Below are positions 9,202 to 61,580 of a stretch of 64,000 bases of DNA, piece by piece (the stretch's first letter is position 1; each line of letters begins with the position of its first letter). The stretch comes from Alicyclobacillus sp. SP_1 (GTDB lineage: Bacteria; Bacillota; Bacilli; Alicyclobacillales; Alicyclobacillaceae). The DNA lies in contig NZ_JAMCCX010000008.1 in assembly GCF_024706985.1 (NCBI RefSeq), positions 1-64,000 of the forward strand, read 5' to 3'. Under the pieces are notes generated by a model. It searched no databases, was not told where the DNA came from, and was given only the letters and a program-made list of their open reading frames with translations. Made by a program: the position numbers and the translations under genes.

Positions 9202-9864
9202 ATGTTTACGGGACTCGTGGAAGAACTCGCGAGAGTAGAAGACATTCGGACGAGTGCAGCGGGATCGACCATCCAACTGGCGGCGGCGGTGGTTCTTGCG
9301 GATGTGCACGTGGGTGACTCCATCGCGGTCAATGGAGTGTGTTTGACGGTCGTCCGGCACGATGCGCACTCGTTCGTGGTGGAAGCGGTGCCGGAGACCA
9401 TGCGCCGGACCACGCTTGGCAGCCTTCGTCGGGGCGACGCGGTTCATGTGGAGCGCGCGGTCGCTGTTGGCGGTAGGCTCGGTGGGCACATGGTGTCCGG
9501 GCACGTGGACGGACTTGGAACCGTGGTGTTTGCGCGCCAAGACGGCACGGCCGTGGTCCTGTCCATCGCCGCAGACGAGAGCCTGTTGCGCTATGTGGTC
9601 GAAAAAGGGTCGATTTGCGTGGACGGCGTGTCTTTGACGGTGATGGATGTGAAGGATGGTCAGTTTCAGGTGTCGGTTATTCCTCACACGGGCCAGGTCA
9701 CGTTGCTGGGCAGTGCGACACCGGGCAGACAGGTGAATTTGGAGTGCGATGTGCTTGCGAAGTATGCGGAAAAATGGATGCGTGCGTTGGCGACCGAACG
9801 TCCTTCAGGTGCACGTTCTGGGGTGAGTCGCGAGTTGCTGGCTGAACACGGATATCTTGGATGA
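9202..9864 (+). CDS. ribE: Riboflavin synthase alpha subunit
   Basis: A 220-residue protein beginning MFTGLVEELARVEDI, the invariant N-terminus of riboflavin synthase. It has two repeated lumazine-binding barrels: the first with VNGVCLTVV and the second with GVSLTVMDV, plus GGHMVSGHVDG between them. It dismutates two 6,7-dimethyl-8-ribityllumazine molecules into riboflavin. The ATG comes directly after the ribD stop, with GGGGCGAG upstream, so the two are translationally coupled. The length fits the family. Confidence 0.95.
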   Translation: MFTGLVEELARVEDIRTSAAGSTIQLAAAVVLADVHVGDSIAVNGVCLTVVRHDAHSFVVEAVPETMRRTTLGSLRRGDAVHVERAVAVGGRLGGHMVSGHVDGLGTVVFARQDGTAVVLSIAADESLLRYVVEKGSICVDGVSLTVMDVKDGQFQVSVIPHTGQVTLLGSATPGRQVNLECDVLAKYAEKWMRALATERPSGARSGVSRELLAEHGYLG

Positions 9865-9879
9865 TGCGGGGGATGCACG

Positions 9880-11070
9880 ATGCTGTCTACGATTGAAGAG
9901 GCACTGGTTGACCTGCGCTCGGGCCGGCCAGTTATAGTGGTGGATGACGAAGACCGCGAAAATGAAGGCGATTTTGTGGTGCTCGGCGAGTTTGCCGATG
10001 CTTCGATGGTCAATTTGATGATTACGCGCGGGCGCGGACTTCTCTGCGTACCGATAACTCCGGACCGTGCAGAAGCTCTCGGTTTTTCGGCCATGGTGGC
10101 GAACAATACGGACGTTCACGGAACGGCGTTCACCATCTCCGTGGACGAGGCTCATACGCGTACCGGCATTTCCGCTCATGAGCGCGCGCAGACGATTGCT
10201 GCGATTGTCTCGGCTGACGCCAAGCCGGAGCACTTTCGGCGGCCAGGCCACATCTTTCCCTTGGTCGCAAAAGAAGGGGGTGTGTTGCGCCGGGCGGGTC
10301 ACACAGAGGCTGCGGTCGATCTCGCTAAGCTCGCGGGTGCTCCTCCGGTTGGCGTCATCTGTGAAATTCTCAATGACGACGGGACCATGGCCCGTCTGCC
10401 GGAACTGCTCAAGTTGTCGGAAGAACTAGGGGTCAAAGTCCTTTCGATAGCCGATTTGATAGCCTATCGAAAGCGCGCTGAGAAGTTGGTGGAACGTCAG
10501 GCTGAGGCTATGTTGCCAACAGCCTACGGAGACTTTCGCGCGATTATCTACACCAACAAGTTAGATGACAAAGAACATGTGGCGCTGGTAATGGGTGATA
10601 TTGATGATAGCCCTACATTGGTGCGCGTCCATTCTGAGTGCTTGACAGGAGACGCCTTCGGCTCGTTGCGCTGTGACTGCGGGCCGCAACTTCATGCGGC
10701 ACTGCAGCAAATTGCAGAGGAGGGCCGTGGTGTGCTTCTCTACCTGCGCCAAGAAGGTCGCGGCATTGGTCTGCTGAATAAGATTCGGGCCTACGCCCTT
10801 CAGGATGTTGGTGTGGATACGGTTGAGGCCAATCACCGCCTCGGATTTGCTGATGACCTGCGGGATTATGGGATTGGTGCGCAGATACTGTACGATTTGG
10901 GTGTGCGCAACATGCGTCTGTTGACAAACAATCCGCGTAAGGTCAAAGGCATTGAAGGGCATGGCTTGGCAGTCGTGGAGCGTGTGCCTCTGCAGGTGGA
11001 TGGGAACCCGCACAACTTGTCCTACTTGGAGACAAAGAGAGACAAATTGGGTCATTTGCTGCAATTGTGA
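9880..11070 (+). CDS. ribBA: RibBA, DHBP synthase / GTP cyclohydrolase II
   Basis: A 396-residue fusion protein. Residues ~1-200 form 3,4-dihydroxy-2-butanone-4-phosphate synthase ([38 protein letters not shown] with [16 protein letters not shown]). Residues ~205-396 form GTP cyclohydrolase II ([19 protein letters not shown] with the three zinc cysteines, and [13 protein letters not shown]). It makes both precursors of the riboflavin pathway, from ribulose 5-phosphate and GTP. Spacing from ribE is 15 bases. Confidence 0.96.
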
Positions 11071-12338: not shown

Positions 12339-14537
12339 TTGAAGCGGAAGACACCAACGCGTTCGCAGTCGACGCAGGCAAAAAACCGCCCCAGTCGCCA
12401 TAAAAAGAGAGTTCTTTTGATTCAGGCAGTGGGGATTGGCACACTCTGTCTGGTCGGTTGGCGCATTTTGGACATTCAGACGACGCTTGGGCCGAGCTTA
12501 TTGAAAGCGGCGGCAAAGATTCAAGACGTTCACAAAACCATTCTGGCGCCGCGAGGTTCGATTTTGGATGACACGGGACATCCAGTCGCATACGATGTTC
12601 CGGCGTATGTGATGGACATAAAGGTCTCTAACTTTCGAAACCGTGAGGCACTGGCCCAAAATCTCTCGGCTGCGATGAAACTGCCGGTCTCGTCGATTGC
12701 TGGTCTTGTCGACGAGAATGACAAGTGGATTCAGTGGCCGCGCCCTGTGTTGGCGACGGTCAAGGAAGCATTGCAAAAAGACTATCAAAACACACCACAC
12801 ATCAACGACTTCACGTTTACAACGACGGAAGAGCGGGTCTATCCATTTGGACGGTTTGCGGCCGCGACCATTGGCTATGTCGGACCGAATGGACAGGGCG
12901 TCATGGGGGTGGAGTCGAGTTACAATAAAGTTCTGGAGGGCACTCCTGGAATTCTGACGTATAAGCAGGACGCTTCGGGGTTTCCATTGCCAGGGACCAT
13001 GAAAACCATTCAAGCAGCGAAGCCCGGCGATTCTGTGGAGTTGACCATTAACCCCACCATTCAAGGATTCGTCGACGAAGAGATGAACAAGTTGGATAAT
13101 CAGGTGCATCCGGCGCATGCCGCCCTGATTGTTATGGACCCATACAACGGAGCCATTTTGGCGATGTCCAGTCGGCCAAACTTCAATCCGAATCACTACT
13201 GGACGGCACCACCGGCAGCATTGGACCAGAATTGGGCAGTGTCTGCCTCGTTTGAACCGGGATCGACCTTCAAATTGGTCGTTTTGTCGGCGGCCCTGGC
13301 GGTGCATGCTATCAATCTCAACCAAAAGTATATGTCTGGGCAAATCACGATTGATGGTCGAACCATTCACGACTGGAATTATTGGGGATGGGGCCGCATT
13401 ACCTATAGGAAGGCTCTAGAATACTCCAGTAACGTGGGTTTTGCGAGAATCGCAATGGCGACGGGTTGGCACAATCTCATGCACTATCTGCGCCTCTTCG
13501 GCATGACCAAACCAACGGGTATCGACCTCCCGGACGAGGCAACTTCAATTCTCTTTCCAAAGTCGGATGAACATGCCAAACAAGGGGAACTGGAGTTGGC
13601 CACGACCGGATTTGGCCAGGGTATTGCCGTCACTCCGCTTCAGTTGGTGGACTCCACGTCTGCCATCGCGAACGGGGGGACACTCTACCGACCATATGTG
13701 GTCAAAGCGATTCTCTCTCCAGACGGAAAGGTCATTCAGCGCATTCGTCCGCACATTCGGCGAGCTCATTTCATTTCGCCGTCCATTCTTAAAACCATTC
13801 GTCAAACGATGGTGCTTGACGTGTCCCAAGGAATTGACAATGCTGCCTATATCAAAGGGTACGATGTCGCTGGCAAGACGGGTACTGCTCAGGTGGTCAA
13901 CCCTAAAACGGGTAAATTCTACAGCTCTCGCTTCTTGACGTCCTTCATTGGATTCGCTCCCGAGTGGGACCCGAAAGTTGTCGTCTATTGCTACGTCGAT
14001 TGGCCTAAACTCCCAGTTAACGATACGTGGGGTAGTACGACGGCCACCCCGATTGCACGTGCCGTATTGAAAGACATCATGGAGTACTATCACATTGCGC
14101 CGCACGGTTCGGTAGCGCAGAAAGAAGAAGCGGCCCTGATGAAGCCGCCAACGCCGACCTCGTATGTGGAGAGCCTGCCGAGCTTAGTCGGGGATTCCCT
14201 GTCCACACTCGACTACTGGGCGAAGAGTACAGGTGCAAATGTCATTCAAAATGGGACGGGTCAAACCGTTGTTCGTCAGTGGCCTGCACCGGGAGACAGT
14301 CTGTCCACCAACATGCCAGTGTATGTTTGGATGTCGCAACCAGCGAAAACGGTCAAAATGCCCAATTTGAAAGGTTTGACCATGGGGCAGGTGTTGTCTT
14401 TGCTCGAAGCGTACCAACTCACACCGGCCCTGCACGGTAGTGGGTTTGTGGCAACACAGTCGGTGCCAGCAGGGTCCGTCGTTCATTCGGGAGAGACGGT
14501 GTCTGTCACTTTGAAACCACCTCTTCAGGAGCCTTGA
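12339..14537 (+). CDS. Class B penicillin-binding protein with two PASTA domains
   Basis: A 732-residue protein: short basic N-terminus, one membrane anchor (residues ~22-45), the class B dimerisation domain, and a transpeptidase domain with active-site serine in PGSTFKLVV, second motif YSSNVGFARI and third motif VAGKTGTAQVV. Two PASTA domains end the protein (residues ~610-670 and ~672-730). This is the PBP2B/SpoVD architecture that cross-links septal or spore peptidoglycan with a SEDS glycosyltransferase. It uses a TTG start. Unlike the usual gene, it is outside a division and cell wall cluster, so it may be an extra copy; whether it serves division or sporulation cannot be told. Confidence 0.88.
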   Translation: MKRKTPTRSQSTQAKNRPSRHKKRVLLIQAVGIGTLCLVGWRILDIQTTLGPSLLKAAAKIQDVHKTILAPRGSILDDTGHPVAYDVPAYVMDIKVSNFRNREALAQNLSAAMKLPVSSIAGLVDENDKWIQWPRPVLATVKEALQKDYQNTPHINDFTFTTTEERVYPFGRFAAATIGYVGPNGQGVMGVESSYNKVLEGTPGILTYKQDASGFPLPGTMKTIQAAKPGDSVELTINPTIQGFVDEEMNKLDNQVHPAHAALIVMDPYNGAILAMSSRPNFNPNHYWTAPPAALDQNWAVSASFEPGSTFKLVVLSAALAVHAINLNQKYMSGQITIDGRTIHDWNYWGWGRITYRKALEYSSNVGFARIAMATGWHNLMHYLRLFGMTKPTGIDLPDEATSILFPKSDEHAKQGELELATTGFGQGIAVTPLQLVDSTSAIANGGTLYRPYVVKAILSPDGKVIQRIRPHIRRAHFISPSILKTIRQTMVLDVSQGIDNAAYIKGYDVAGKTGTAQVVNPKTGKFYSSRFLTSFIGFAPEWDPKVVVYCYVDWPKLPVNDTWGSTTATPIARAVLKDIMEYYHIAPHGSVAQKEEAALMKPPTPTSYVESLPSLVGDSLSTLDYWAKSTGANVIQNGTGQTVVRQWPAPGDSLSTNMPVYVWMSQPAKTVKMPNLKGLTMGQVLSLLEAYQLTPALHGSGFVATQSVPAGSVVHSGETVSVTLKPPLQEP

Positions 14538-45384: not shown

Positions 45385-45505
45385 AAAAAGACCGCCCTCG
45401 GCAATGAGGAACAACGCAGGTTGTCCAGTTTGCCCAGGCGGTCGGCATATTTTCACTCACAGTCCCTCGTGGTGCTCCACGTTTCCGCCAGTTCTGTGAG
45501 GTGCA
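45385..45505 (-). promoter_or_regulatory. ZTP/ZMP (pfl) riboswitch with terminator upstream of folD
   Basis: Read on the minus strand: ACTGGCGGAAACGTGGAGC, then CACCACGAGGGA, a linker, and GCCGACCGCCTGGGCA. These match the two conserved halves of the pfl RNA, with the pseudoknot-forming GGCG and CCGCC. A terminator follows, GACCGCC pairing with GGCGGTC before TTTTT (45385-45447), sharing bases with the aptamer. It would turn folD on when ZMP or ZTP rises, that is, when one-carbon folates are short. Confidence 0.92.
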
Positions 45506-47053: not shown

Positions 47054-48709
47054 TTACCTTACGTCGAGTCCGGTAGCAGAGCGCGGTGACCACACGCGAA
47101 ATTCGTCAGCCAGTTTCAGCCAATCGTAAATAGGCAGCGGACTGGACAACGAAGTCATTTCCACGTCTGTGATGGGTGTATCCACTCTCATTTGGAGTAT
47201 GCCCGAGGGTAAGATGTGGAAATTCACGTGTCGTTGATGGCCGATATCTACTCGAAATGACGCGACTGGGAGCTCGGTAAATAACACAGGTGGATGATTG
47301 CGGCTCATTTCAATGAACCACAGATTCGTCGCAATCACGCCAAATGTGTCACCTCCGTCGGGTTTCGAAAAATTGAACGGATCCGCCTTGGGAAGCTGTG
47401 TTGGCAACATGGGGGTGATGTCCTTTTCATGCTGAAGTTGCAACAACCGCTGTTGTCCGTTGGAGGGGATGACGACATTCCGCCACGCCGTGTGCTGGGA
47501 TGTTTGGTACGAAGTCCATGCCGAGGGAGGCAGAAAAACATGCTCTAAGGTAAAATCCTGTCCGCCATCCTTCGATTGAAACAGGAAAAACGCATGGGCA
47601 TTGTCTACAGAACTGAGCATCGGGGATTCGTCCACGAGCACTTCAACCAACCCGGGACTTGGCACCGCTGACTGCAGCAATTGACCAGGAAGCGAGTTTG
47701 CCATTCGAGTCCAATCGGATGCTTGGTTCGTGGATGAAAACAGGGAGACGACGTCCGTCCCGTAAAGATAGGATTCACTCACCTTGAGTCGCGTGTCTCC
47801 AGACTCGAGGATTTGATATCCTCTTTGGCTCGCGGTAGCATCGGCAGCATCGGCGGAGGCAGGTAGTTTCACTTTCTGCCATGCGGTCGCGGATGATGGG
47901 AGAAGATAGCTGGTGGTCGATGGGGTCGCGTTGGCAGACGCAGTAGACGGAGTCGGAGTTGTCGTTAATTCAATCGCCCCGTGAGTGAGACCTATCAAAT
48001 GCCACCGCAGCGAGGCCCTCAGATTTGTCAACGAGATTGGCAAGGTGGGTAGAGACTGAGTCCTGACGTGATGTTTCTCCCATGTCACGCGCAGCACGGT
48101 CATGGTTTGGGAGGCTGACGAGCCATACGGGTTGACGAGAATGTCACAGGAAGACGTACTGATGGGCAGTATACTCAAAATGCCGGAAGCAAAGACGCTT
48201 GGTACGGTGTTCCAAGACTGTCCGCCGTCCATGCTGACGTATAGGTGGTGTTCTCCGGCCATCCAGGCGGTTTCAGGGTTAAGCCACTTCAGAGACACGA
48301 CGTGTGCCGGACCGGCGGAAAAGAGCTGGTTGACGGCAGATAGGTTTACTTCTGGGTAAGCGGAGCGAACCGAGCGAATGGTTACTCCCGATGTTTGAGC
48401 CTTCTTTGCGGGCTTTTGCGAAACCACCGCCACGCGAACGGAGACTGCCTGTTGGGATGTAGAATTTGCACTGGCTTGACTGGCGGTTTGTCCAGAAGCA
48501 GTAGATTTGGTGCTGCTTTGACCGAGAGTGGTTGTCGTGGCGTCCGCGCCAGATTGGGTCGAAGTGGAAGTGGCAAAACGGGCTGAGGTCGTTGAAGCAG
48601 ACGCTCCAGCGGATGATGCTGATGAGGTATCACAGCCTGTCACAGCGAATAGCAGTGCGGTTGTCGCCAACGGAAATAGCAAAATTCTTATCGGTTTTTT
48701 CAGATTCAT
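47054..48709 (-). CDS. Lipoprotein with Ser/Thr-rich linker and Asp-box repeats
   Basis: A 551-residue secreted lipoprotein. Residues 1-25 form a signal peptide with the lipobox FAVTGC. Residues ~27-100 are a Ser/Thr/Ala/Gln-rich linker. The rest looks like a beta-propeller with Asp-box motifs (LYVSMDGGQSWNTV near residue 157, LFQSKDGGQDFTLE near 380, and a looser copy SSTNQASDWTRM), as in BNR and photosystem-assembly-like proteins. No catalytic residues can be assigned. It is tethered to the outer membrane leaflet face. The gene is monocistronic. Confidence 0.75.
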   Translation of the reverse strand: MNLKKPIRILLFPLATTALLFAVTGCDTSSASSAGASASTTSARFATSTSTQSGADATTTTLGQSSTKSTASGQTASQASANSTSQQAVSVRVAVVSQKPAKKAQTSGVTIRSVRSAYPEVNLSAVNQLFSAGPAHVVSLKWLNPETAWMAGEHHLYVSMDGGQSWNTVPSVFASGILSILPISTSSCDILVNPYGSSASQTMTVLRVTWEKHHVRTQSLPTLPISLTNLRASLRWHLIGLTHGAIELTTTPTPSTASANATPSTTSYLLPSSATAWQKVKLPASADAADATASQRGYQILESGDTRLKVSESYLYGTDVVSLFSSTNQASDWTRMANSLPGQLLQSAVPSPGLVEVLVDESPMLSSVDNAHAFFLFQSKDGGQDFTLEHVFLPPSAWTSYQTSQHTAWRNVVIPSNGQQRLLQLQHEKDITPMLPTQLPKADPFNFSKPDGGDTFGVIATNLWFIEMSRNHPPVLFTELPVASFRVDIGHQRHVNFHILPSGILQMRVDTPITDVEMTSLSSPLPIYDWLKLADEFRVWSPRSATGLDVR

Positions 48710-52433: not shown

Positions 52434-54509
52434 ATGCTGCGCGGAAAGTCGCGAAAGTCGGCACGCAGGCGAAATCCGGCATCCCGGCTGTGGATTATCA
52501 CCGGATTTTCCACCGCTGCTTTGGTTAGCCTGCTGCTGCGTCTCGGTTATGTCCAGGTGGTTCAAGGAGCGGTCTATCGGTCCGAAGCGACGAATGTGGA
52601 AGTATCATCCTACCCAGTACTGCCCCCACGAGGGTATATCTATAGCAGCAATGGCACCATTTTGGCGCAGAACCACCCGATATACGATGCATATTTAGCC
52701 CGCGTTCCGCATGTGAGCCACGATTATGCGGAGATAGCCAAAAAATTGGCGCCCTGGGTGCACATGACGCCGACTGCCTTATTGGCCGCGATGAAAACCA
52801 GTCCGTTATCGCCGCAGGTTCGAATTGCACAGGGGTTGTCCGATGCCGCCATTTCTTATATCTACGAGCATCATAATGAGTTGCCAGGCGTCGAAGTTCA
52901 GGTTGATCCGGTTCGCAATTACCCGGAAGGTGACCTGGCTGGACACATCCTTGGATATGTGGGCCCCATCACGAGCCAGACTGAGAACTATTATGTTGGT
53001 AAATTACACTACTTAGACAATCAAATTGTGGGAGAGACCGGGATTGAGGCGGAATACAACTCATACTTGGAAGGACACGTGGGCGAAGAGCAGTATTTAA
53101 TTCGCAGCAATGGAACGGTGAAGTCCATTGGCATGCAGCCACCGCCGCAGTCCGGGGACAACTTGCAACTGACCATCAATTCTGCATATCAGGCACAGGC
53201 GCAGAGAATTGTGGCCGACTTTATTCAACGCGACGATGTGATGCGTTATGAAATTCACTCCGCCGCGGCCGTCGTGCTGAATGTGAAGAATGGCGCTGTC
53301 GAAGCGTTAGTCAGTTATCCCTACTACAATCCAGAATGGTTCATCAACGGCAGTATTGTCAAACATGAAAATTATCTGAACAAGTCGCAAGCTTTGATTG
53401 ACAACGTCATCCAAAGTAGAGAGTACCCAGGGTCTGCTGTCAAACCGGCGAATGCCTTGGCAGGACTTGAGTCGGGCACCATTACGCCACAAACTGTGGT
53501 GGACGACCGAGGGTATTTGAAGATTGGAGACCGCATCTTTCACAACTGGTATCGACCTGGCTTTGGCGATGTGACGGTGGTCACGGCTCTGGAACATTCA
53601 GATGATACGTTCTTTTACCAGCTCGGCATGTGGCTTGGGGGCTGGGTCAATCAGCATTATCCGCATCACGAATCTTATACGCAGTGGGTAAGAACTCGCT
53701 TTGTGAAAGCGATTGACACGATTTTTGGCTGGGAGTATAAATTTGGACTTGGACAACTGACGGGGATTGACCTTCCTGGCGAAGTACGTGGACGTTTCTA
53801 CGAAGAAGACACGCGTAAAAACTATGAAGAAGTTCGCTATCCGCTTTTGAAAGCAGAAGCGAGCATGAAGAAAAAAGGCTATTTTAACAACTGGGGTGCC
53901 TTACCTGACTTGGCGTTTGCGGATATTGGACAGTCGCAGGAATTTACACCGATTGAAATGGGACAATTTGTCATGACCATTGCAGACAAAGGCGTCAAAT
54001 ATCGACCGTATGTGTTAAAAGCCATATATCCGGCCGATGAGGTGCCGGGGTCACCGGGAAGTAAGCCAATCTTTGTCGAGAAGCCCAAGGTCCAAGCGCG
54101 AATCTCCTTGAATCCTACGGATTTGAAAGCGGTCTACAAAGGGATGTATCTGATGGCCAATGCGCCTGGAGGGCTGCTTTACCAGGGGGGGTTTGCCGGA
54201 ACGCCGTACCATGCGGCGGGAAAGACAGGTACGGCGCAAATTGTTCTTGACGGCAAGCGCGTGGATGACTCCGTGACCATCGCGTTCGCACCGTTTCATC
54301 ACCCGCAGGTTGCTATTGCGGTCATGGTCCCAGGTGGCGGAGCGAGTACGACCACTGCGTCGCATATTGCCAAACGCCTGTTTAATGCGTACTTTGAGAT
54401 GCATCACGAGTATTTTCCAAAGTCCGATTGGTTGCCTGACACATTCCAACCCCATGTATGGAAGCACACATTTGCTTACTGGCAACCAGCAGATGGGTAT
54501 TTACCGTAA
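52434..54509 (+). CDS. Class B penicillin-binding protein, PBP2/MrdA type
   Basis: A 691-residue transpeptidase: basic N-terminus, one anchor (residues ~20-40), dimerisation domain with VRNYPEGDLAGHILGYVGPI, and a catalytic domain with active serine in REYPGSAVKPANALAGLESG, second motif LEHSDDTFFYQLGMWLGG (Ser-x-Asp as in PBP2) and third motif AAGKTGTAQIV. This is the elongation-type HMW class B group. No PASTA domain. GGAGGAG precedes the ATG. Only 42 bases separate it from the exosortase locus in the same direction, so it may be cotranscribed and help build the wall around the anchored product; that link is inference. Confidence 0.88.
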   Translation: MLRGKSRKSARRRNPASRLWIITGFSTAALVSLLLRLGYVQVVQGAVYRSEATNVEVSSYPVLPPRGYIYSSNGTILAQNHPIYDAYLARVPHVSHDYAEIAKKLAPWVHMTPTALLAAMKTSPLSPQVRIAQGLSDAAISYIYEHHNELPGVEVQVDPVRNYPEGDLAGHILGYVGPITSQTENYYVGKLHYLDNQIVGETGIEAEYNSYLEGHVGEEQYLIRSNGTVKSIGMQPPPQSGDNLQLTINSAYQAQAQRIVADFIQRDDVMRYEIHSAAAVVLNVKNGAVEALVSYPYYNPEWFINGSIVKHENYLNKSQALIDNVIQSREYPGSAVKPANALAGLESGTITPQTVVDDRGYLKIGDRIFHNWYRPGFGDVTVVTALEHSDDTFFYQLGMWLGGWVNQHYPHHESYTQWVRTRFVKAIDTIFGWEYKFGLGQLTGIDLPGEVRGRFYEEDTRKNYEEVRYPLLKAEASMKKKGYFNNWGALPDLAFADIGQSQEFTPIEMGQFVMTIADKGVKYRPYVLKAIYPADEVPGSPGSKPIFVEKPKVQARISLNPTDLKAVYKGMYLMANAPGGLLYQGGFAGTPYHAAGKTGTAQIVLDGKRVDDSVTIAFAPFHHPQVAIAVMVPGGGASTTTASHIAKRLFNAYFEMHHEYFPKSDWLPDTFQPHVWKHTFAYWQPADGYLP

Positions 54510-54551
54510 GTCTAGATTCTGGTCGATATCTAGGGAGCGAGGGAACCGGTC

Positions 54552-55040
54552 GTGGGTGCACAGACATTTGGGCGACAGTGGTTGGGCTTTCGGCGCGAAG
54601 TCGTGCTGCGTGAGTTGGCTGCTTATGAGCAAGAGATAGCTGACCTGAGAGCAAAATTGGCGAAAGCAGAACAGCGGTGGCAGCGAGCCGAGGCGGAGCG
54701 AGAAGAACTGTCGTTGACTTTGGCAGCCATGCGGCGGCAACAACTCCAACCGCTGTCGTCCGGTTCTGCATCACTGCAGCCAGCCATTGTGCTTGTGGGA
54801 CCGACAGATGTGCTTGGACCCATTACTCTAGTGGTCGATGCCCTCGAGAGTAGTCCGCACTTCACACCTCGGTTTCGCGTGTTTCGCGACGGTTTTTATC
54901 GCGTGGACGGAGAAACAGCGGATCGGACAAAGCTTGTCGACTGGCTCCGCGCGTTGCCGGAAGTCCGCGAGACGCGTCAGGACCAAGAGACCATTCACGT
55001 GGTTCCAGGAACTCGTGGAACCGGGGAGCGAAGCGGATGA
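54552..55040 (+). CDS. Coiled-coil protein of the exosortase locus, unknown function
   Basis: A 162-residue soluble protein. Residues ~18-62 form a strong coiled coil (LRELAAYEQEIADLRAKLAK, QRAEAEREELSLTLAAM). Residues ~75-158 look like a small alpha/beta domain (IVLVGPTDVLGPITLVVDAL, FRVFRDGFYRVDGETAD, LPEVRETRQDQETIHVVP). I cannot name a family. The GTG start follows GAGGG, and its stop overlaps the ATG of the glycosyltransferase by four bases. The overlap suggests a partner or regulator of that enzyme. Confidence 0.65.
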   Translation: MGAQTFGRQWLGFRREVVLRELAAYEQEIADLRAKLAKAEQRWQRAEAEREELSLTLAAMRRQQLQPLSSGSASLQPAIVLVGPTDVLGPITLVVDALESSPHFTPRFRVFRDGFYRVDGETADRTKLVDWLRALPEVRETRQDQETIHVVPGTRGTGERSG

Positions 55041-57274
55041 AGGGTACTCTAAAGCAGCGGGTGGCCGACACTCGCGAGTCAGAGACGTTTGTCTCTCTGC
55101 GACCCTATCGCTTGGACGGGTCAGACTCGCTGGTCGATCCGGTCGATCCTACGACGGCCCGAATCATCCCCGCAGATGCAGCTCGCCGTCATCAGTTGCT
55201 CGCGTTTGCTCGGGTTGGCACCTGTGTCTGGTTGGCGGCGGTGCATCCGCACGACATCATGGGGACCTTCATGGAACTCGGATTGCCAAGTTCCTATACG
55301 TATCGGTGGTGTTACGCGGAGCGCGAAGATCTTCTCTTTGCGCAAGACCGAGTCTATGGGATGGTGGACCGAGAAGGCGGAGAACGGCTCGGGTCTTACC
55401 TTCTGCGTACGGGGCGTATTACGACACAAGACTTGGTCGCTGCGTTAGCGGATCAAAATGTGGATGAAGCTGGGCAAAAGCTCGGAGCGATTCTCCTGCA
55501 AAGAGGTGTCATCACCAACTGGAATATTGCGGAGGCTGTTGCCAGTCAACGCGGTTATCCGCTGATTGACCTGCTCGGTCAGACAGCTTTGACCAATAAT
55601 CTCGTTTCCTCGCGTCTTGATGGTGCGTGGGCGTTGGCAGAAGAACGGTTCTGGCACCGTCATTTGATGGTGCCACTCGACGAAGATGAGCAGACGTTGA
55701 CCGTGGCGATGGTCGATGTGGACGACCGGGAAGCTCTGGAGTATTTGGAGAAGACGGCAAAGAAGCGTTTGCGCGTTTTTGTGACGGGGTCTCGCGATGT
55801 CGTGCATGTGCTCAACCAGCGGTTTGGTGCCACACAATCCTTGGAGAGTCAGCTGTCCCTCTTTCGCTTGCGGCCAGAAGACAGTGCCGCAACGCCTGTG
55901 TCTCGGGCTCAGTGGTTGTGGATGCTGGCGCTCTTGATGGTCGCGATGGTTGGTTTTATCCTTCGCCCCGTGTGGACAGGGACATTTTTGGCTGCTACGG
56001 TCGAAGTGGTCTATGCTTCGGTGAGCCTCTTCCGCCTCATGACAATGTCCGCCGCCATTCGCAGCAACACAGAGTATGTGGTCACGGAAGCAGACATGCA
56101 GTCTGTGCCACCGACCTCTTTGCCGGAATACACGGTACTCGTCCCGCTGTATAAGGAAGCGGATGTATTACCCATGTTGACAAAAGCACTCCAACAACTG
56201 CGCTATCCGAAGGATCGGCTGGATGTCAAGCTGCTATTAGAGGAAGATGACCGAGAGACTCTAGAAGTTGCTTTGAATGCTCGGCTACCCAGTTACATGG
56301 AGATTGTCGTCGTGCCCCATTCCGAGCCACAAACGAAGCCCAAGGCGTGCAATTATGGCCTAGCCAAAGCGCGCGGGGAGTACGTGGTTATCTTTGACGC
56401 GGAAGATGTTCCAGAGCCAGACCAACTCTTGAAAGCCGTTACCATTTTTCGTGAGGAACAGAACGAGAATCTTGCTTGCATTCAAGCAAAACTGTCTTAT
56501 TATAATGAGAATCAGAATATCTTAACGCGCTGGTTTACGGCGGAATATTCGAATTGGTTTGAGTTGCTTCTGCCGTCGCTGTTTCGCTTGGACATGCCCA
56601 TTCCTCTGGGAGGAACGTCCAATCACTTCCGGACGGACGTGTTGCGTGCCTTGGGCGCGTGGGATCCTTTCAATGTCACGGAAGACGCAGATCTGGGCAT
56701 TCGCCTTCACAAGTCCGGTTATCGGACGGGGGTGATGAACTCCACCACGTTTGAAGAAGCAAACTCGGACTTTGTGAACTGGGTGCGCCAACGTTCCCGT
56801 TGGGTAAAAGGGTATATTCAAACGTGGTTCGTTCACATGAGACATCCTGTGCGCCTATTTGAAGAGCTTGGGAATGTCGGTTTTTGGGGCTTTCAGTCGA
56901 CGATTGGTGGCATGCCGCTGCAATTTCTTCTAAACCCGATTTTATGGGGCTTGACAGTTGCTTGGTATGTGTTTGGTTCCAGCTACTTGCAGCATGTATT
57001 TTCAGGGTGGATTTATTACTTGGGGAATGTCTCGCTGTTTTTTGGGAACGTCGCGTTTATCTACGCCAATCTGATGGGTGTGGTGAAGGCGCAGCGGTGG
57101 TCGCTGGCCAAGTGGTGTTTGCTCACGCCCGTTTATTGGGTTTTTATGTCGATTGCTGCGTATAAAGCGCTGTATCAATTCTTTCTGCGTCCCTCCTACT
57201 GGGAAAAAACGATTCATGGTATGGCGAGTGAGCACTTTGCGAGCACTGTGGATCAGATGGGTGCAGGGATGTGA
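55037..57274 (+). CDS. GT2 glycosyltransferase with N-terminal GspE/MshEN domains
   Basis: A 745-residue membrane protein. Residues ~35-105 resemble half of a GspE N-terminal domain. Residues 117-171 hold two MshEN motifs (RLGSYLLRTGRITTQDLVAA ending ADQ140, and KLGAILLQRGVITNWNIAEA ending ASQ171), the repeat that binds c-di-GMP in MshE and NfrB. Two spans follow (~293-335). The GT2 domain (~362-600) has DxD-like FDAEDVPEP, GGTSNHFRTD, TEDADLGIRL and RQRSRWVKGY, as in processive synthases. Further spans end it. It likely builds or transfers a glycan at the membrane under c-di-GMP control. GT-MshEN fusions like NfrB have the opposite domain order. Confidence 0.85.
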   Translation: MKGTLKQRVADTRESETFVSLRPYRLDGSDSLVDPVDPTTARIIPADAARRHQLLAFARVGTCVWLAAVHPHDIMGTFMELGLPSSYTYRWCYAEREDLLFAQDRVYGMVDREGGERLGSYLLRTGRITTQDLVAALADQNVDEAGQKLGAILLQRGVITNWNIAEAVASQRGYPLIDLLGQTALTNNLVSSRLDGAWALAEERFWHRHLMVPLDEDEQTLTVAMVDVDDREALEYLEKTAKKRLRVFVTGSRDVVHVLNQRFGATQSLESQLSLFRLRPEDSAATPVSRAQWLWMLALLMVAMVGFILRPVWTGTFLAATVEVVYASVSLFRLMTMSAAIRSNTEYVVTEADMQSVPPTSLPEYTVLVPLYKEADVLPMLTKALQQLRYPKDRLDVKLLLEEDDRETLEVALNARLPSYMEIVVVPHSEPQTKPKACNYGLAKARGEYVVIFDAEDVPEPDQLLKAVTIFREEQNENLACIQAKLSYYNENQNILTRWFTAEYSNWFELLLPSLFRLDMPIPLGGTSNHFRTDVLRALGAWDPFNVTEDADLGIRLHKSGYRTGVMNSTTFEEANSDFVNWVRQRSRWVKGYIQTWFVHMRHPVRLFEELGNVGFWGFQSTIGGMPLQFLLNPILWGLTVAWYVFGSSYLQHVFSGWIYYLGNVSLFFGNVAFIYANLMGVVKAQRWSLAKWCLLTPVYWVFMSIAAYKALYQFFLRPSYWEKTIHGMASEHFASTVDQMGAGM

Positions 57275-57291
57275 CGTAGGGAGGGTTGTTA

Positions 57292-58947
57292 TTGGGGATG
57301 GTCGCGAGTTCGCAAGAGTTGTTGAACCAGGAGCCCAATCCGTCTCAGTTCTTTCCCCAAGGAGTACCTCGCGCGGTGCGAAGAATTGGACTGACGATGG
57401 CACTGCTGTCCGGTGTCGTGTCTTTGACGACGGGGTATCTCTTGGTCTTTCGGTATCATCAACTTTTTGGTGATGCGATTTCGAGAGCTATCGTCGGCAT
57501 GTACATGACATGGGATGGACACTTTCATCTCGCCGCCATGGGGTTTTACTGGAGTCCACTGCTCAGTTTGTTCTCCGTCCCGTTCGCTCTCGCACGACAT
57601 TGGTGGCCACCTTTAATGACGTATGGGTTTTCCGCCAATATTTTGTCAGCTTTATTTGCGGCCGTCGGCGTCTATCATCTCTACCGCATCTTGTGGCGCT
57701 TCGGTCTATCCCAATGGGCCTCGGTCGTCTGGACAAGCCTCTATCTCTTAAATCCGCTCATCCTTCTCTATTCTGCCAACGGAATGTCGGACGCCATTGA
57801 GTGTGCAATACTCTTGGCGATGGTCGATGGTTTGGTCGAATACCTGCAGACCGACCGACTCGGAGCGTTGGTTCGAAGTGCCACCTGGCTGGCAGCGGCG
57901 TTTATGGTGCGCTACGAATCCGTCCCGATTGGCGCGTGTCTGGGCATCGCTTTGGTGCTTTCCATATGGATTCGTACTAAAAATTGGTATCGGGCGGAAG
58001 CGATTGGGTTGGCTCTTTTGTTTCCAATTGTGATGGCGGGGATTATCTGGATGTTGCTTGGAGCGATGATTATGCACAATCCGTTCTACTTTTTGAATTC
58101 GCGCTACTCGAATGGCGCTCAAATCAGCACCGGATCGTACAATTTTCCGCAGGTCTTGGCCGCACGTCATCACCTTGGCGTCACTCTCTATCAAGTGTTC
58201 CGATTTATGGACAATTTTTGGGCGTATGCTCCGGCTGCTGTCACCGTCGCCGTCCTACAATTTCGGCGCCGCACCGACTCGATTGGCATCTCATTGCTCG
58301 CCGCTTCGTTCGGTGCCCCGTTGCTACAGATAGTGCTCCTGTATTCTCATCGGTCTGCCGATTGGCAACGCTTTTTTATCTACTACATTCCGTTTGGATT
58401 TTTGCTGTTCGCATACGTGATTTGGAAACTGCCGATAAGATGGCGCTCATGGTTTGCTTGGATGGGATGCTTTGCACTTGTGGCGAGCAATTACGCCGCT
58501 CTCGAAGCGATGAAGTCGCCCGTGTGGGGCAACGGAGATACGAGCGTGTATCAAGCGGTCTTTGATAGCCAGCGGGGGTCACTGAAGGATAACGCGAATT
58601 ACATGACGCTCGAACAAGGTGAAGTAGAAGCTCATTATATCAATGCGCATCCGCATCTGGTGGTGTTAATCAGTACATTTGACAGCCCGCTGGTGATGCC
58701 GTTTATTCGGAGGCCGGGGCAAATCATTTTTTCTGGAGAACCCTCTTATGATTCGATATTGGAAAATCCGCTAGGTCGTGCCAATGCTATTTTGACCGTG
58801 CCGAATAGCCCCCATTCGCTCGGCGCGGATACGAGCATCAATCGGATGTATCCTGGACTTTGGGCAGGACATGTGTCTTGGACCAAGCTCATTCACCAGT
58901 GGAAAAATGGCGACCGCCTGTATGCGGTCTTAAAGGATGCACCGTAA
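57292..58947 (+). CDS. Multi-spanning GT-C-like glycosyltransferase of the exosortase locus
   Basis: About 550 residues with ten or more hydrophobic spans and an extracytoplasmic C-terminal domain (from about residue 425). An acidic residue in the first outer loop (YMTWDGHFHLAAMGFYWSPL) and conserved-looking LYSANGMSDAIECAILLAMV and AAAFMVRYESVPIGACLGIA fit the dolichol-/lipid-phosphate-sugar-dependent GT-C (GT39-like) fold. It probably glycosylates a protein or lipid outside the cell. A TTG at 57292 lies six bases after GGGAGG; TTG 57286 and ATG 57298 are alternatives. It lies 17 bases after the GT2 gene and 28 before the exosortase. Confidence 0.75.
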   Translation: MGMVASSQELLNQEPNPSQFFPQGVPRAVRRIGLTMALLSGVVSLTTGYLLVFRYHQLFGDAISRAIVGMYMTWDGHFHLAAMGFYWSPLLSLFSVPFALARHWWPPLMTYGFSANILSALFAAVGVYHLYRILWRFGLSQWASVVWTSLYLLNPLILLYSANGMSDAIECAILLAMVDGLVEYLQTDRLGALVRSATWLAAAFMVRYESVPIGACLGIALVLSIWIRTKNWYRAEAIGLALLFPIVMAGIIWMLLGAMIMHNPFYFLNSRYSNGAQISTGSYNFPQVLAARHHLGVTLYQVFRFMDNFWAYAPAAVTVAVLQFRRRTDSIGISLLAASFGAPLLQIVLLYSHRSADWQRFFIYYIPFGFLLFAYVIWKLPIRWRSWFAWMGCFALVASNYAALEAMKSPVWGNGDTSVYQAVFDSQRGSLKDNANYMTLEQGEVEAHYINAHPHLVVLISTFDSPLVMPFIRRPGQIIFSGEPSYDSILENPLGRANAILTVPNSPHSLGADTSINRMYPGLWAGHVSWTKLIHQWKNGDRLYAVLKDAP

Positions 58948-58975
58948 TCGACTGGAATAGTGATGGAGAGTGATG

Positions 58976-60655
58976 ATGGTGGCTATCGGGATGAACCAGC
59001 CGTCGAGAACTGCGCTTGGGTCGAAGAGTGTTCGGGTTAGTGCGCTCTCTCGATGGTGGTGGATCACGTTTTGGGTGGTCGGCACCGCGCTGCCATTCGG
59101 GCCGTTTCTGACCTCCATGGTCAAGGCCGCCTTGGCGGATACGCCTTACGCCTATCTGATGTGGATCCCGATTTTCTCCTTCGCGTGGGCCGCTTTGTCT
59201 CTGCGCCATGTGCCATCCTATAGTGACGACCGAGAGTTGAACGCCATTGTTGGGGTCTTTATCACGGTGACTTCCGGAATCTTTCTCTACTATGGGAGCT
59301 ATCATTGGGCCTTTCGTTATGTGGCTAACGGTGATGCCTTGCTTTTGTGGCCGCTATGGGGACTGGGACTGGCTTGGTTGTTCTTTGGAGTCGGCGTCAC
59401 CCGATTTCTGTGGAAGCCTCTCGCCTATCTCATGCTTTGTTGGACTCCCCTTTATACGGAAGTCGTTCGCTGGACCAACCCACGGCTAGAGACGATGGAC
59501 AACGCCTTGATGAGAGGATTGTTTGACCACTTTTCCTGGGTTCGACTAGGTTCCACTTATGGAAGCTACGATGTATTTGGGCATAGCAAGTGGTCCCTGT
59601 TGATTGTCTCCAGCCCTTGCAGCGGAGCCGACAGCTTTTTGGCGATGGTCGTCTGGCTGCCAGTTCTTCTGGTTGCCTTTAAGGCAACTTGGCAGCAGCG
59701 GACCCTTCTCATCGTGCTCGGCGCCGTCATGGCAATATGTCTGAACTGGATGCGGCTCATCGGTTTGGTTGCCGCGACGCACTGGTTTGGGCCTGGGATT
59801 ACCTTCGGATGGATTCACCCGGTTCTGGGAGCTGTTTTGTTCGCCGTGGCTTTAACGATGCTCTTGCTCATTGGGCATCGCCTTGGATTAAAGCCTAAGT
59901 CGCCACAAAAGGACCAGCAGCATCTGAAGACGCCAGGGGTTATGCGCAGTGGATTTGGAGCACTGTCCATTGCGACATTGACGGGACTTCTCCTTCCACT
60001 GTACCTGCCGGACTCGGGAACCGTGGTTACGCCCATCCCAACGAAGACAGAGCAAATTTCCCGTTTGATGCCAGCGAATATGCCTGGGTATCAGCGGCAG
60101 GTGTTGCTGCGTCAAAATGAGAGTTCCTTGTTTGGAGCGGGATCTTACGGAGAAGCTTACTCTTACATGAGCCGAGATGGATACGCACTGCTCGCTGAAG
60201 AGTTTCGAAGTTATCAGCTGTCCGCTTTGCAAAGTTACGGTGTAGACCATTGCTTACTGTTTCACGGCAATACTATTTTGGCATCCCGTCAATACAGTCT
60301 TCGTCGCGGTATCACGGCGGACGCATTCATCATTTCTCTGCCGGTTGTGGGTAAAGCCGGGCGGCCTTCCTTGTACGTGGATCTGTCGTATATTTATGCG
60401 GTTCAAACCAACGGCAAAACCGCCTACTTGCGAGCGGAATTTGCGGGTTCTCTGGTGAATTCCAGTCAGCGTCAAGGTGATAGGCACAATGTGGCGTCGT
60501 TACTTCCAGTTGCCTTCTCAGAGACTGGAGGAGCGCGATGGTCGCGCTCGAACAGCCATTGGTCAGCATCCGTTCAGGCAAGGGAAGACAAATTTTTTAC
60601 CTTCGTCCAGACGTTTGCTAAATTCACTTTGCCGAATCCTTCAGCGACCCAGTGA
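58976..60655 (+). CDS. Exosortase family protein with C-terminal EpsI-like domain
   Basis: About 559 residues. Eight or so spans fill residues ~28-310. The family's catalytic residues are all present: C215 in SSPCSGADSFLAM, R260 in ICLNWMRLIGLV and H281 in WIHPVLGAVLFAV. The C-terminal ~210 residues after one more span (~325-345) are extracytoplasmic and resemble the EpsI-type domain often fused or linked to exosortases. Exosortases are transpeptidase-like enzymes that cut and transfer C-terminal PEP-CTERM-type tails. They are common in Gram-negatives and rare in Bacillota. ATG 58973 or 58976 is likely after GGAGAG. Its presumed substrate is the next gene. Confidence 0.88.
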   Translation: MVAIGMNQPSRTALGSKSVRVSALSRWWWITFWVVGTALPFGPFLTSMVKAALADTPYAYLMWIPIFSFAWAALSLRHVPSYSDDRELNAIVGVFITVTSGIFLYYGSYHWAFRYVANGDALLLWPLWGLGLAWLFFGVGVTRFLWKPLAYLMLCWTPLYTEVVRWTNPRLETMDNALMRGLFDHFSWVRLGSTYGSYDVFGHSKWSLLIVSSPCSGADSFLAMVVWLPVLLVAFKATWQQRTLLIVLGAVMAICLNWMRLIGLVAATHWFGPGITFGWIHPVLGAVLFAVALTMLLLIGHRLGLKPKSPQKDQQHLKTPGVMRSGFGALSIATLTGLLLPLYLPDSGTVVTPIPTKTEQISRLMPANMPGYQRQVLLRQNESSLFGAGSYGEAYSYMSRDGYALLAEEFRSYQLSALQSYGVDHCLLFHGNTILASRQYSLRRGITADAFIISLPVVGKAGRPSLYVDLSYIYAVQTNGKTAYLRAEFAGSLVNSSQRQGDRHNVASLLPVAFSETGGARWSRSNSHWSASVQAREDKFFTFVQTFAKFTLPNPSATQ

Positions 60656-60694
60656 GCTTGAGTGCGATAATCCTTAAATTTGTGAAAGTATGTA

Positions 60695-60722
60695 TGGACA
60701 GCTGAAAACTTTATGCTAAACT
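60695..60722 (+). promoter_or_regulatory. Promoter of the presumed exosortase substrate gene
   Basis: TGGACA and TAAACT are 16 bases apart, with TGC forming an extended -10. Predicted start near 60729, about 94 bases before the gene. The interval is clearly AT-richer than the flanking genes. The substrate thus has its own promoter in addition to read-through from the exosortase gene. Confidence 0.5.
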
Positions 60723-60730
60723 TACCATAG

Positions 60731-60752
60731 TAACTAATATATTTGTTAGTTA
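60731..60752. promoter_or_regulatory. Inverted repeat at the substrate gene's transcription start
   Basis: TAACTAA and TTAGTTA are exact reverse complements around an eight-base AT-rich loop, nine bases downstream of the -10 element. The position suits an operator for a repressor or a 5' stabilising hairpin. Confidence 0.5.
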
Positions 60753-60822
60753 ATAAGAACAAGTTTGTTTCCTGTAGAGAACAAAAAGTCCACGAATTGT
60801 GGAAGAGTATGGGGGAACGGCG

Positions 60823-61317
60823 ATGAAAACATGGACAAGTGCATGGCTTTCACTCTTTACCGTGGGTGCGTTGCTCGGCGCGGCGGCGTTGTCAGCACCA
60901 AATGCTTTGGCCGCGACAGGACCGGGGACGGGTTCAACTACAACGACGAGCGGACCTCTGGGTAGTTCGCGGACGAATCCTGCTCCGGGTTCACCAAGTC
61001 CGTCAAGTCCAGGAGGCTCATCGAATTCTGGACGTTCACAAAATACTACAGGTGGCTCATCAACTCCATCAAAACCACCAGGTCCAGCGGGCACATCAGG
61101 TAAGGGGTCTGGCTCTAAACAAGACGGAAAGTCTTCCAACGACAATTCTGGTTCGAGTAAATCGAATCAATCCAAGACGGGTACACAAGGCAATCCAACC
61201 CAAGCCCCAGGTGGAGTTAAACCTTTGGATGCTCCAGAGGTTCCTTACGCGGCGATATTTCCACTGATGGCGGTACTTGCGTTTGGTATTTACCGTTGGC
61301 GAGTCCGCAAGGCTTAA
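60823..61317 (+). CDS. Secreted low-complexity protein with exosortase-type sorting tail
   Basis: A 164-residue protein. Residues 1-30 form a signal peptide ending NALA before ATG (A-x-A site). Residues 31-137 have no fold: they are made almost only of Gly, Ser, Thr, Pro, Asn, Gln and Lys. The C-terminus has three parts: APEVPYAA (137-144), a hydrophobic span (145-157) and RWRVRKA (158-164). This is the layout of PEP-CTERM/exosortase substrates, but the motif differs from the named ones I know. The Ser/Thr-rich body suits glycosylation by the neighbouring enzymes. GGGGGAA lies five bases before the ATG. It follows the exosortase gene directly, which supports an enzyme-substrate pair. Confidence 0.82.
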   Translation: MKTWTSAWLSLFTVGALLGAAALSAPNALAATGPGTGSTTTTSGPLGSSRTNPAPGSPSPSSPGGSSNSGRSQNTTGGSSTPSKPPGPAGTSGKGSGSKQDGKSSNDNSGSSKSNQSKTGTQGNPTQAPGGVKPLDAPEVPYAAIFPLMAVLAFGIYRWRVRKA

Positions 61318-61370: not shown

Positions 61371-61554
61371 TTGACGGAGTGAGGTGAGCAGACGAAGGAT
61401 TAAGAAGTAGCTGAGATGCTTTTCTTCTCTTTCGGTTGAATTTCTTGCCCGACTCTGGCGCAGGGCAACAGACTTCAATGGAGGTCGAACTTGCGGCGGC
61501 GAGGAAATCTGTGATAACCTGTAGCATGAAAATAGAACATGTGGATACTACGGA

Positions 61555-61580
61555 GGAGCCTGTCGCCAGGTTCCTTTTTT
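61555..61580 (+). terminator. Intrinsic terminator ahead of the Na+/H+ antiporter gene
   Basis: GGAGCCTG and CAGGTTCC pair (one G-T) around a short loop, followed by six T, 109 bases before the antiporter start. Located this far from the upstream gene, it may belong to an attenuated leader of the antiporter. The rest of 61371-61688 shows a TTGCCC/GGGCAA hairpin near 61447-61468 but no recognised riboswitch. Confidence 0.65.

Follow-up and report, generated by a model that had tools for sequence, protein, structure and literature searches.

A compact locus in Alicyclobacillus sp. SP_1 encodes a Gram-positive exosortase outside the named subtypes, with a class of sorting tail to itself

The locus and the closest described systems

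Exosortases are usually associated with bacteria that have an outer membrane. Here we describe a compact version from Alicyclobacillus sp. SP_1, a probably acid-loving member of a genus that, like Sulfobacillus, is Gram-positive. The locus lies at 52434-61317 on the + strand of a 64,000-nt stretch of contig NZ_JAMCCX010000008.1 (assembly GCF_024706985.1; hereafter the window, to which all coordinates refer), and pairs one enzyme and one 164-residue presumed substrate with a glycan synthase of the cyclic di-GMP (c-di-GMP) type. A sequence-only reading of the window had listed six genes here, and all six were verified on the + strand in the order given: a PBP2-type transpeptidase, a coiled-coil protein, a glycosyltransferase fused to an MshEN domain (MshEN-GT2), a GT-C membrane glycosyltransferase, the exosortase and a secreted protein with a PE-type sorting tail. 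Sequence and domain matches bore out the latter five as parts found together. The exosortase represents a Gram-positive subtype that has so far no name, and its tails form a class of their own; subtype and tail class can both be modelled for annotation.

In the PEP-CTERM/EpsH system (TIGR02602, TIGR02595; PMC1569441), the exosortase carries the three EpsH motifs (C-x-G, N-x-x-R and H-x-x-x-G), the substrates combine a signal peptide, a PE motif, a hydrophobic stretch and a basic end, and the genes stand in an exopolysaccharide neighbourhood. The Alicyclobacillus locus is alike in each of these respects. However, its exosortase scored only 37.2 bits against TIGR02602 (cutoff 105.55), and its tail, of the pattern P-E-x3-A-x3-P, gave no match to any NCBIfam CTERM model up to E 10. 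Furthermore, the hosts are presumably Gram-positive, the substrates are few (one in this genome), and MshEN-GT2, GT-C and the coiled-coil protein are found here, not a large exopolysaccharide locus. Some EpsH proteins have a C-terminal extension homologous to EpsI (PMC1569441); the EpsI models (TIGR02914, PF11984) were matched neither by the window exosortase nor among the families listed for 18 members of its group.

The nearest Gram-positive parallel is XrtG (TIGR03110/TIGR03111, Firmicu-CTERM; PMC12854382), where a CTERM protein, an exosortase and glycosyltransferases adjoin in Bacillota. The sequence-only reading had set the locus apart from both EpsH and XrtG. Separation from XrtG by sequence is clear, as the exosortase falls far below the cutoff, the GT2 has an MshEN domain and shows no close relation to the XrtG-associated GT2, and the GT-C, coiled-coil protein and tail class differ. 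The contrast in gene set was overstated, however, because the published description of XrtG likewise combines two glycosyltransferases with an exosortase and a CTERM protein (PMC12854382).

Further parallels concern single components. NfrB of Escherichia coli is an MshEN-GT2 that makes a c-di-GMP-dependent exopolysaccharide (PMC8669469). Both NfrB and the window protein fuse a GT2 with DxD, TED and QxxRW to an MshEN domain, but this domain is C-terminal in NfrB and N-terminal here, and in place of NfrA the partners are an exosortase, a GT-C and a coiled-coil protein. Archaeosortase A of Haloferax (PMC7157517) belongs to the same superfamily, and its processing is coupled to surface anchoring at midcell, which may be compared with the possible DivIVA/GpsB-like role discussed below. 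That enzyme is archaeal and lipid anchoring has been demonstrated for it, whereas a surface acceptor and a defined site are predictions for the bacterial system described here. Amongst the bioleaching acidophiles compared previously, a PEP-CTERM exosortase system was reported only in Leptospirillum ferriphilum (PMC5418355). Our literature search found no paper on exosortases in Alicyclobacillus, although an earlier mention of the subtype is possible.

The exosortase and its sorting tails

The exosortase (561 residues; 58970-60655, +) scored 64 bits against PF09721 (cutoff 25.7) and 50.2 bits against TIGR04178 (cutoff 23), which places it within the exosortase superfamily. Comparison with the NCBIfam/TIGRFAM models, the check proposed alongside the sequence-only reading, reached the cutoff of no named subtype: XrtV came closest (46.4 bits against 313), with XrtA at 38.1 (208) and XrtG at 16.5 (102.75). 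The best E-values of its relatives against named subtypes likewise imply scores below the cutoffs, and NCBIfam 20.0 contains no subtype model that recognises this type. A single such exosortase occurs in the SP_1 genome, which was searched by profile only.

The predicted nucleophile, Cys217 of the C-x-G motif (codon 59618-59620, +), was invariant in alignments of 10 and 18 relatives, as were Arg262 of N-x-x-R (59753-59755, +) and His283 of H-x-x-x-G (59816-59818, +). Proteolytic sorting activity is a prediction from sequence. In the AlphaFold2 model (pLDDT 80.5), the membrane part is helical and reaches roughly residue 345; it is followed by a beta-rich domain at the C-terminus (about residues 356-555), which is predicted to be extracytoplasmic. 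This domain resembles PsbP/Mog1/LpqN folds with a borderline VIA Z of up to 8.6. Foldseek with the model returned nothing at E < 0.001, and sequence searches of the PDB found no relatives of the exosortase or of the GT-C.

The presumed substrate (60823-61317, +; alternative GTG start at 60799) was recognised from sequence and composition. A signal peptide, read by eye, is followed by a linker of about 105 residues rich in Ser, Thr, Gly and Pro (36% Ser+Thr) and by the sorting tail (61234-61314, +), which consists of PEVPYAAIFP, the hydrophobic stretch LMAVLAFGIY and the basic end RWRVRKA. All four elements of a PEP-CTERM-type architecture (signal peptide, PE motif, hydrophobic stretch and basic C-terminus) can therefore be read from the protein.

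The P, E, A and P of the tail pattern were invariant across 18 aligned tails carried by otherwise different proteins. Near the C-terminus, the pattern occurred in 26 of 1993 open reading frames (ORFs) in related loci, compared to 1.09 expected when the last 60 residues were shuffled. Twenty-five of these matches were tails in exosortase loci and one was evidently false (L026, 4788-5078); the count of 26 represents about 21 distinct tail proteins because some loci are duplicates (L012/L024, L015/L034, L018/L037, L019/L038). The tails of relatives also stayed below the cutoffs of CTERM models, the best scores being 14.5 for PEF-CTERM (cutoff 23) and 13.2 for MYXO-CTERM (cutoff 15.85).

Tail proteins and exosortases co-occurred exactly across 41 genomes of the Alicyclobacillaceae. 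At E < 0.001, the tail profile found its target in 9/9 genomes with an exosortase and in 0/32 of the others. In the SP_1 genome one tail protein was retrieved (E 4.6e-17; next match 1.1), in agreement with the single dedicated substrate of the sequence-only reading. A single substrate that is all linker did not hold as a feature of the system, as tail proteins of relatives can have folded bodies and a genome can encode as many as seven of them (four in G040, seven in G037). These two genomes also encode tail proteins in trans that played no part in building the profile; these carry signal peptides and differ in their bodies. Amongst the tail proteins encoded far from the exosortase (L114-L119 and L121), one exceeds 500 residues, with apparent immunoglobulin-like and carbohydrate-binding domains.

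The conserved unit and its glycosyltransferases

Relatives of the exosortase were present in 9/41 Alicyclobacillaceae genomes and, counting SP_1, in 2/299 genomes drawn from the phylum. A single-sequence scan of GTDB genome contigs returned no relatives, but an alignment-based scan did find them, at 15 loci in GTDB species genomes. These included Alicyclobacillus ferrooxydans TC-34, A. mengziensis S30H14, Sulfobacillus harzensis DSM 109850, several Bacillota metagenome-assembled genomes (MAGs) and one Actinomycetes MAG; no plasmid-borne relatives were found. Nearly all related exosortase loci contained an ORF that combines a signal peptide with this tail. The coiled-coil protein was found in 5/41 genomes, the same five that possess a full-length MshEN-GT2, a GT-C and the exosortase, and the full module also occurred in S. 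harzensis, Bacillota MAGs and the Actinomycetes MAG. Judged by these sequence comparisons, the conserved unit is the exosortase plus tail protein, usually accompanied by the coiled-coil protein, MshEN-GT2 and GT-C. The occurrence in the Actinomycetes MAG (HOT.MB2.50, L035) places the same module in a genome assigned to another phylum, through either transfer or mis-binning.

The MshEN-GT2 (55037-57274, +; NF053729, PF05157, PF13632/PF13641) has an N-terminal pilus-ATPase-like lobe, a c-di-GMP motif and a membrane GT2 domain. Its MshEN domain scored 40.0 bits against NF053729 (cutoff 38), with PF05157 and the GT2 domains also matched, so the c-di-GMP-type sensor named in the sequence-only reading stands, with c-di-GMP binding predicted. 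Two 24-residue MshEN motifs, RLGSYLLRTGRITTQDLVAALADQ and KLGAILLQRGVITNWNIAEAVASQ (55385-55549, +), were compared with the motif of PMC5013675. The first deviates once (R at position 11) and the second fits the relaxed form. The GT2 signatures EEDD, DAED, TED and QRSRW span 56240-56803 (+), and all 12 relatives compared keep EDD/ADD, DAED, [TA]ED and QRSRW. The residues of a processive GT2 (D, DxD, TED, QxxRW) are present, with DAED in place of DxD and, in some relatives, [TA]ED for TED. PDB relatives were PilF, PilB, MshE and BcsA. Thirteen GGDEF matches indicate that c-di-GMP is probably made in SP_1. Genes encoding GGDEF, EAL or HD domains also occur in the vicinity of three related loci, those of G040, A. 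ferrooxydans and A. mengziensis.

The adjoining GT-C (57286-58947, +; start codon uncertain, 57286-57298) is PMT_2-like and scored 29.0 bits against PF13231 (cutoff 26.1); Asp63, early in the protein, was invariant in an alignment of 9 relatives. At five further Alicyclobacillaceae loci (L095, L096, L097, L098, L101), a shorter MshEN-GT2 is paired with a GT-C, and neither a coiled-coil protein nor an exosortase lies nearby; this is a separate glycan unit of the c-di-GMP type, apparently uncharacterised. In A. mengziensis and one relative, PelF-like (PF11997) and PelG-like genes adjoin those of the exosortase and of a linker-type tail protein, a likeness to Gram-positive Pel loci. The window locus differs in having MshEN-GT2 and GT-C, and the Pel assignment rests on PF11997 and a reading of gene order. 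Because glycosyltransferase pairs occur without exosortases and exosortases occur in Pel-like loci, we distinguish two combining modules, one of exosortase and tail protein and one a c-di-GMP-type glycan synthase. The tail protein of the two Pel-like loci (L017, L018) is Gly-rich, and L018 also encodes an HD-domain protein. Large secreted proteins of glycoside-hydrolase-like appearance with IPT/TIG repeats were seen near glycosyltransferase genes at L020 7059-9125 (with a TIG match), L013 16569-19187 and L028 10754-13096.

The coiled-coil protein (54552-55040, +) comprises a DivIVA/GpsB-like start, a coiled coil and a ferredoxin-like domain. PF05103 (DivIVA) was matched by 10/11 family members (best E 5e-4), with no match for the window protein up to E 1; GpsB chains were the best PDB matches (E 0.0047). 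Likeness to DivIVA/GpsB is thus weak but consistent at the sequence level, and a partner of this kind is a hint that sorting might be directed to a particular place in the cell. The C-terminal part, with the conserved F-R-x-F/Y-R-D-G-x-Y-R-V-D, forms the ferredoxin-like domain in the AlphaFold2 model (VIA Z up to 6.6), for which Foldseek returned nothing at E < 0.001. Since Z values of 8.6 and 6.6 are within the range of unrelated models, our fold descriptions stop at 'PsbP/Mog1-like' for the exosortase domain and 'ferredoxin-like' here.

Proposed mechanism, alternatives and neighbouring features

We propose, with a probability of roughly 0.6 for the whole, that this unnamed exosortase subtype cuts and transfers its tail protein in concert with a c-di-GMP-driven glycan, positioned by the coiled-coil protein. 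The signal peptide would direct export of the tail protein, and the tail would keep it in the membrane. At the outer face, the exosortase would recognise P-E-x3-A-x3-P and cut at or near PE with Cys217, helped by Arg262 and His283. The cut protein would then pass to a surface acceptor, being either released into or fixed in an exopolysaccharide-type layer. At high c-di-GMP, MshEN-GT2 and GT-C would make the glycan or a lipid-linked precursor, and the DivIVA/GpsB-like protein may position the GT2 complex. A system this small is one in which the acceptor to which a bacterial exosortase attaches its substrate could be found.

The predicted link to a polysaccharide is supported by the QRSRW motif, relatedness to BcsA, the NfrB parallel, the Pel-like neighbours and the GGDEF/EAL/HD genes near three loci. 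Several points weigh against the proposal. Cleavage and anchoring are themselves predicted steps. The presence side of the co-occurrence between tail and exosortase is partly circular because the tails in the profile came from loci with an exosortase; this circularity touches neither the absences nor the trans-encoded tail proteins of G037 and G040. No PE tail lies near the divergent exosortases of L031 and L032. Taken singly, each coiled-coil sequence shows a weak likeness to DivIVA, and none was detected for the window protein alone. Moreover, several relatives have a degenerate second MshEN motif, so that control by c-di-GMP may not apply throughout, and the GT-C may point to glycosylation of protein or lipid instead of a polymer. 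Next to the exosortase of L032 (9998-11617) we observed a secreted protein (9399-9944, -) with a C-terminal transmembrane helix and no PE motif, perhaps of a different tail class.

The sequence-only reading had assigned the two glycosyltransferases a different role, with GT2 and GT-C glycosylating the low-complexity tail protein outside the cell before the exosortase cuts and anchors it. The Ser+Thr content of the window linker would suit this, the glycosyltransferase genes are immediate neighbours, and the GT-C matches PMT_2, a family of protein mannosyltransferases. However, GT2/GT-C pairs occur in several genomes without an exosortase or tail protein nearby, tail protein and exosortase occur with Pel-like genes in place of these glycosyltransferases, and the S. 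harzensis tail protein, beside GT2 and GT-C of the same kind, has a linker with 9% Ser+Thr. Several substrates are, in addition, folded domains. Linker glycosylation is therefore unsupported as a general rule and we consider it unlikely; a matrix polysaccharide is likelier, because related exosortases are also seen in Pel-like loci and GT2/GT-C pairs exist where there is no exosortase.

A more specific form of the proposed mechanism has the exosortase join the cut C-terminus covalently to the c-di-GMP-activated glycan or its lipid-linked precursor, giving a protein-polysaccharide conjugate at a site set by the DivIVA/GpsB-like adaptor. This is a speculative extension that we hold to be improbable as stated. 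It is similarly improbable, if anything slightly more so, that the tail protein escapes cutting altogether and is an ordinary protein anchored in the membrane, with the exosortase-like protein doing something else. A signal peptide and a C-terminal helix would be enough for membrane anchoring and cleavage is a predicted step, but the four tail residues are invariant on differing proteins found only in exosortase genomes, and the catalytic residues are kept.

That the locus is a divergent XrtG system, with its CTERM protein, exosortase and two glycosyltransferases, is strongly disfavoured. The XrtG genes as published encode parts of the same types (PMC12854382) and TIGR03110 was matched by 7/18 relatives at E up to 1. 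However, this model was unmatched in the SP_1 genome at the limit used, the window exosortase lies far below its cutoff as given above, and the GT2 scored 47.6 against 363.95 for TIGR03111. XrtG loci, for their part, have an exosortase of about 200-400 residues and a short GT2 (at most 35 bits to our GT2 profile), and the DNA examined there yielded neither a GT-C nor a coiled-coil match. We therefore rejected membership of XrtG.

GpsB binds penicillin-binding proteins (PBPs), the coiled-coil protein resembles GpsB, and the PBP2-type transpeptidase (52434-54509, +; TIGR03423/PF00905) ends 42 bases before the coiled-coil gene on the same strand, but a dedicated partnership, for example in joining the tail protein to peptidoglycan, is very hard to credit, as the SP_1 genome has four such paralogues (the others 76%, 69% and 40% identical to the window copy), paralogues are present in 41/41 family genomes, no other related exosortase locus has a PBP of this type, and the gene neighbourhoods of the copies compared differ. 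On these grounds the PBP, which the sequence-only reading had counted in the set, was judged a neighbour outside the system. The window holds two PBP2-type proteins (12339-14537 and 52434-54509), and the four close relatives of the second in the genome represent an unusual expansion.

As to spacing, the intergenic gaps first read as 42, -4, 17 and 28 bases were exact for 42 and -4; the other two hinge on start codons, with 11 to 23 bases before the GT-C and 22 before the exosortase (28 if counted from the ATG at 58976). A possible promoter of the substrate gene, TGGACA-16-TAAACT with a TG before the second hexamer (60695-60722, +), is a consensus match in a region with no more such matches than its shuffles. 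A possible terminator 3' of the gene, an 11-pair stem with a T run (61552-61577, +), is likewise a consensus match. No c-di-GMP or other riboswitch was found in the locus (Rfam, up to E 1). Elsewhere in the window, a ZMP/ZTP riboswitch (RF01750) lies at 45425-45505 (-), scoring 66.7 bits against a gathering score of 39, and 47054-48709 (-) encodes a secreted, Ser/Thr/Ala-rich lipoprotein-like protein with a weak, sub-threshold YCF48-type match.

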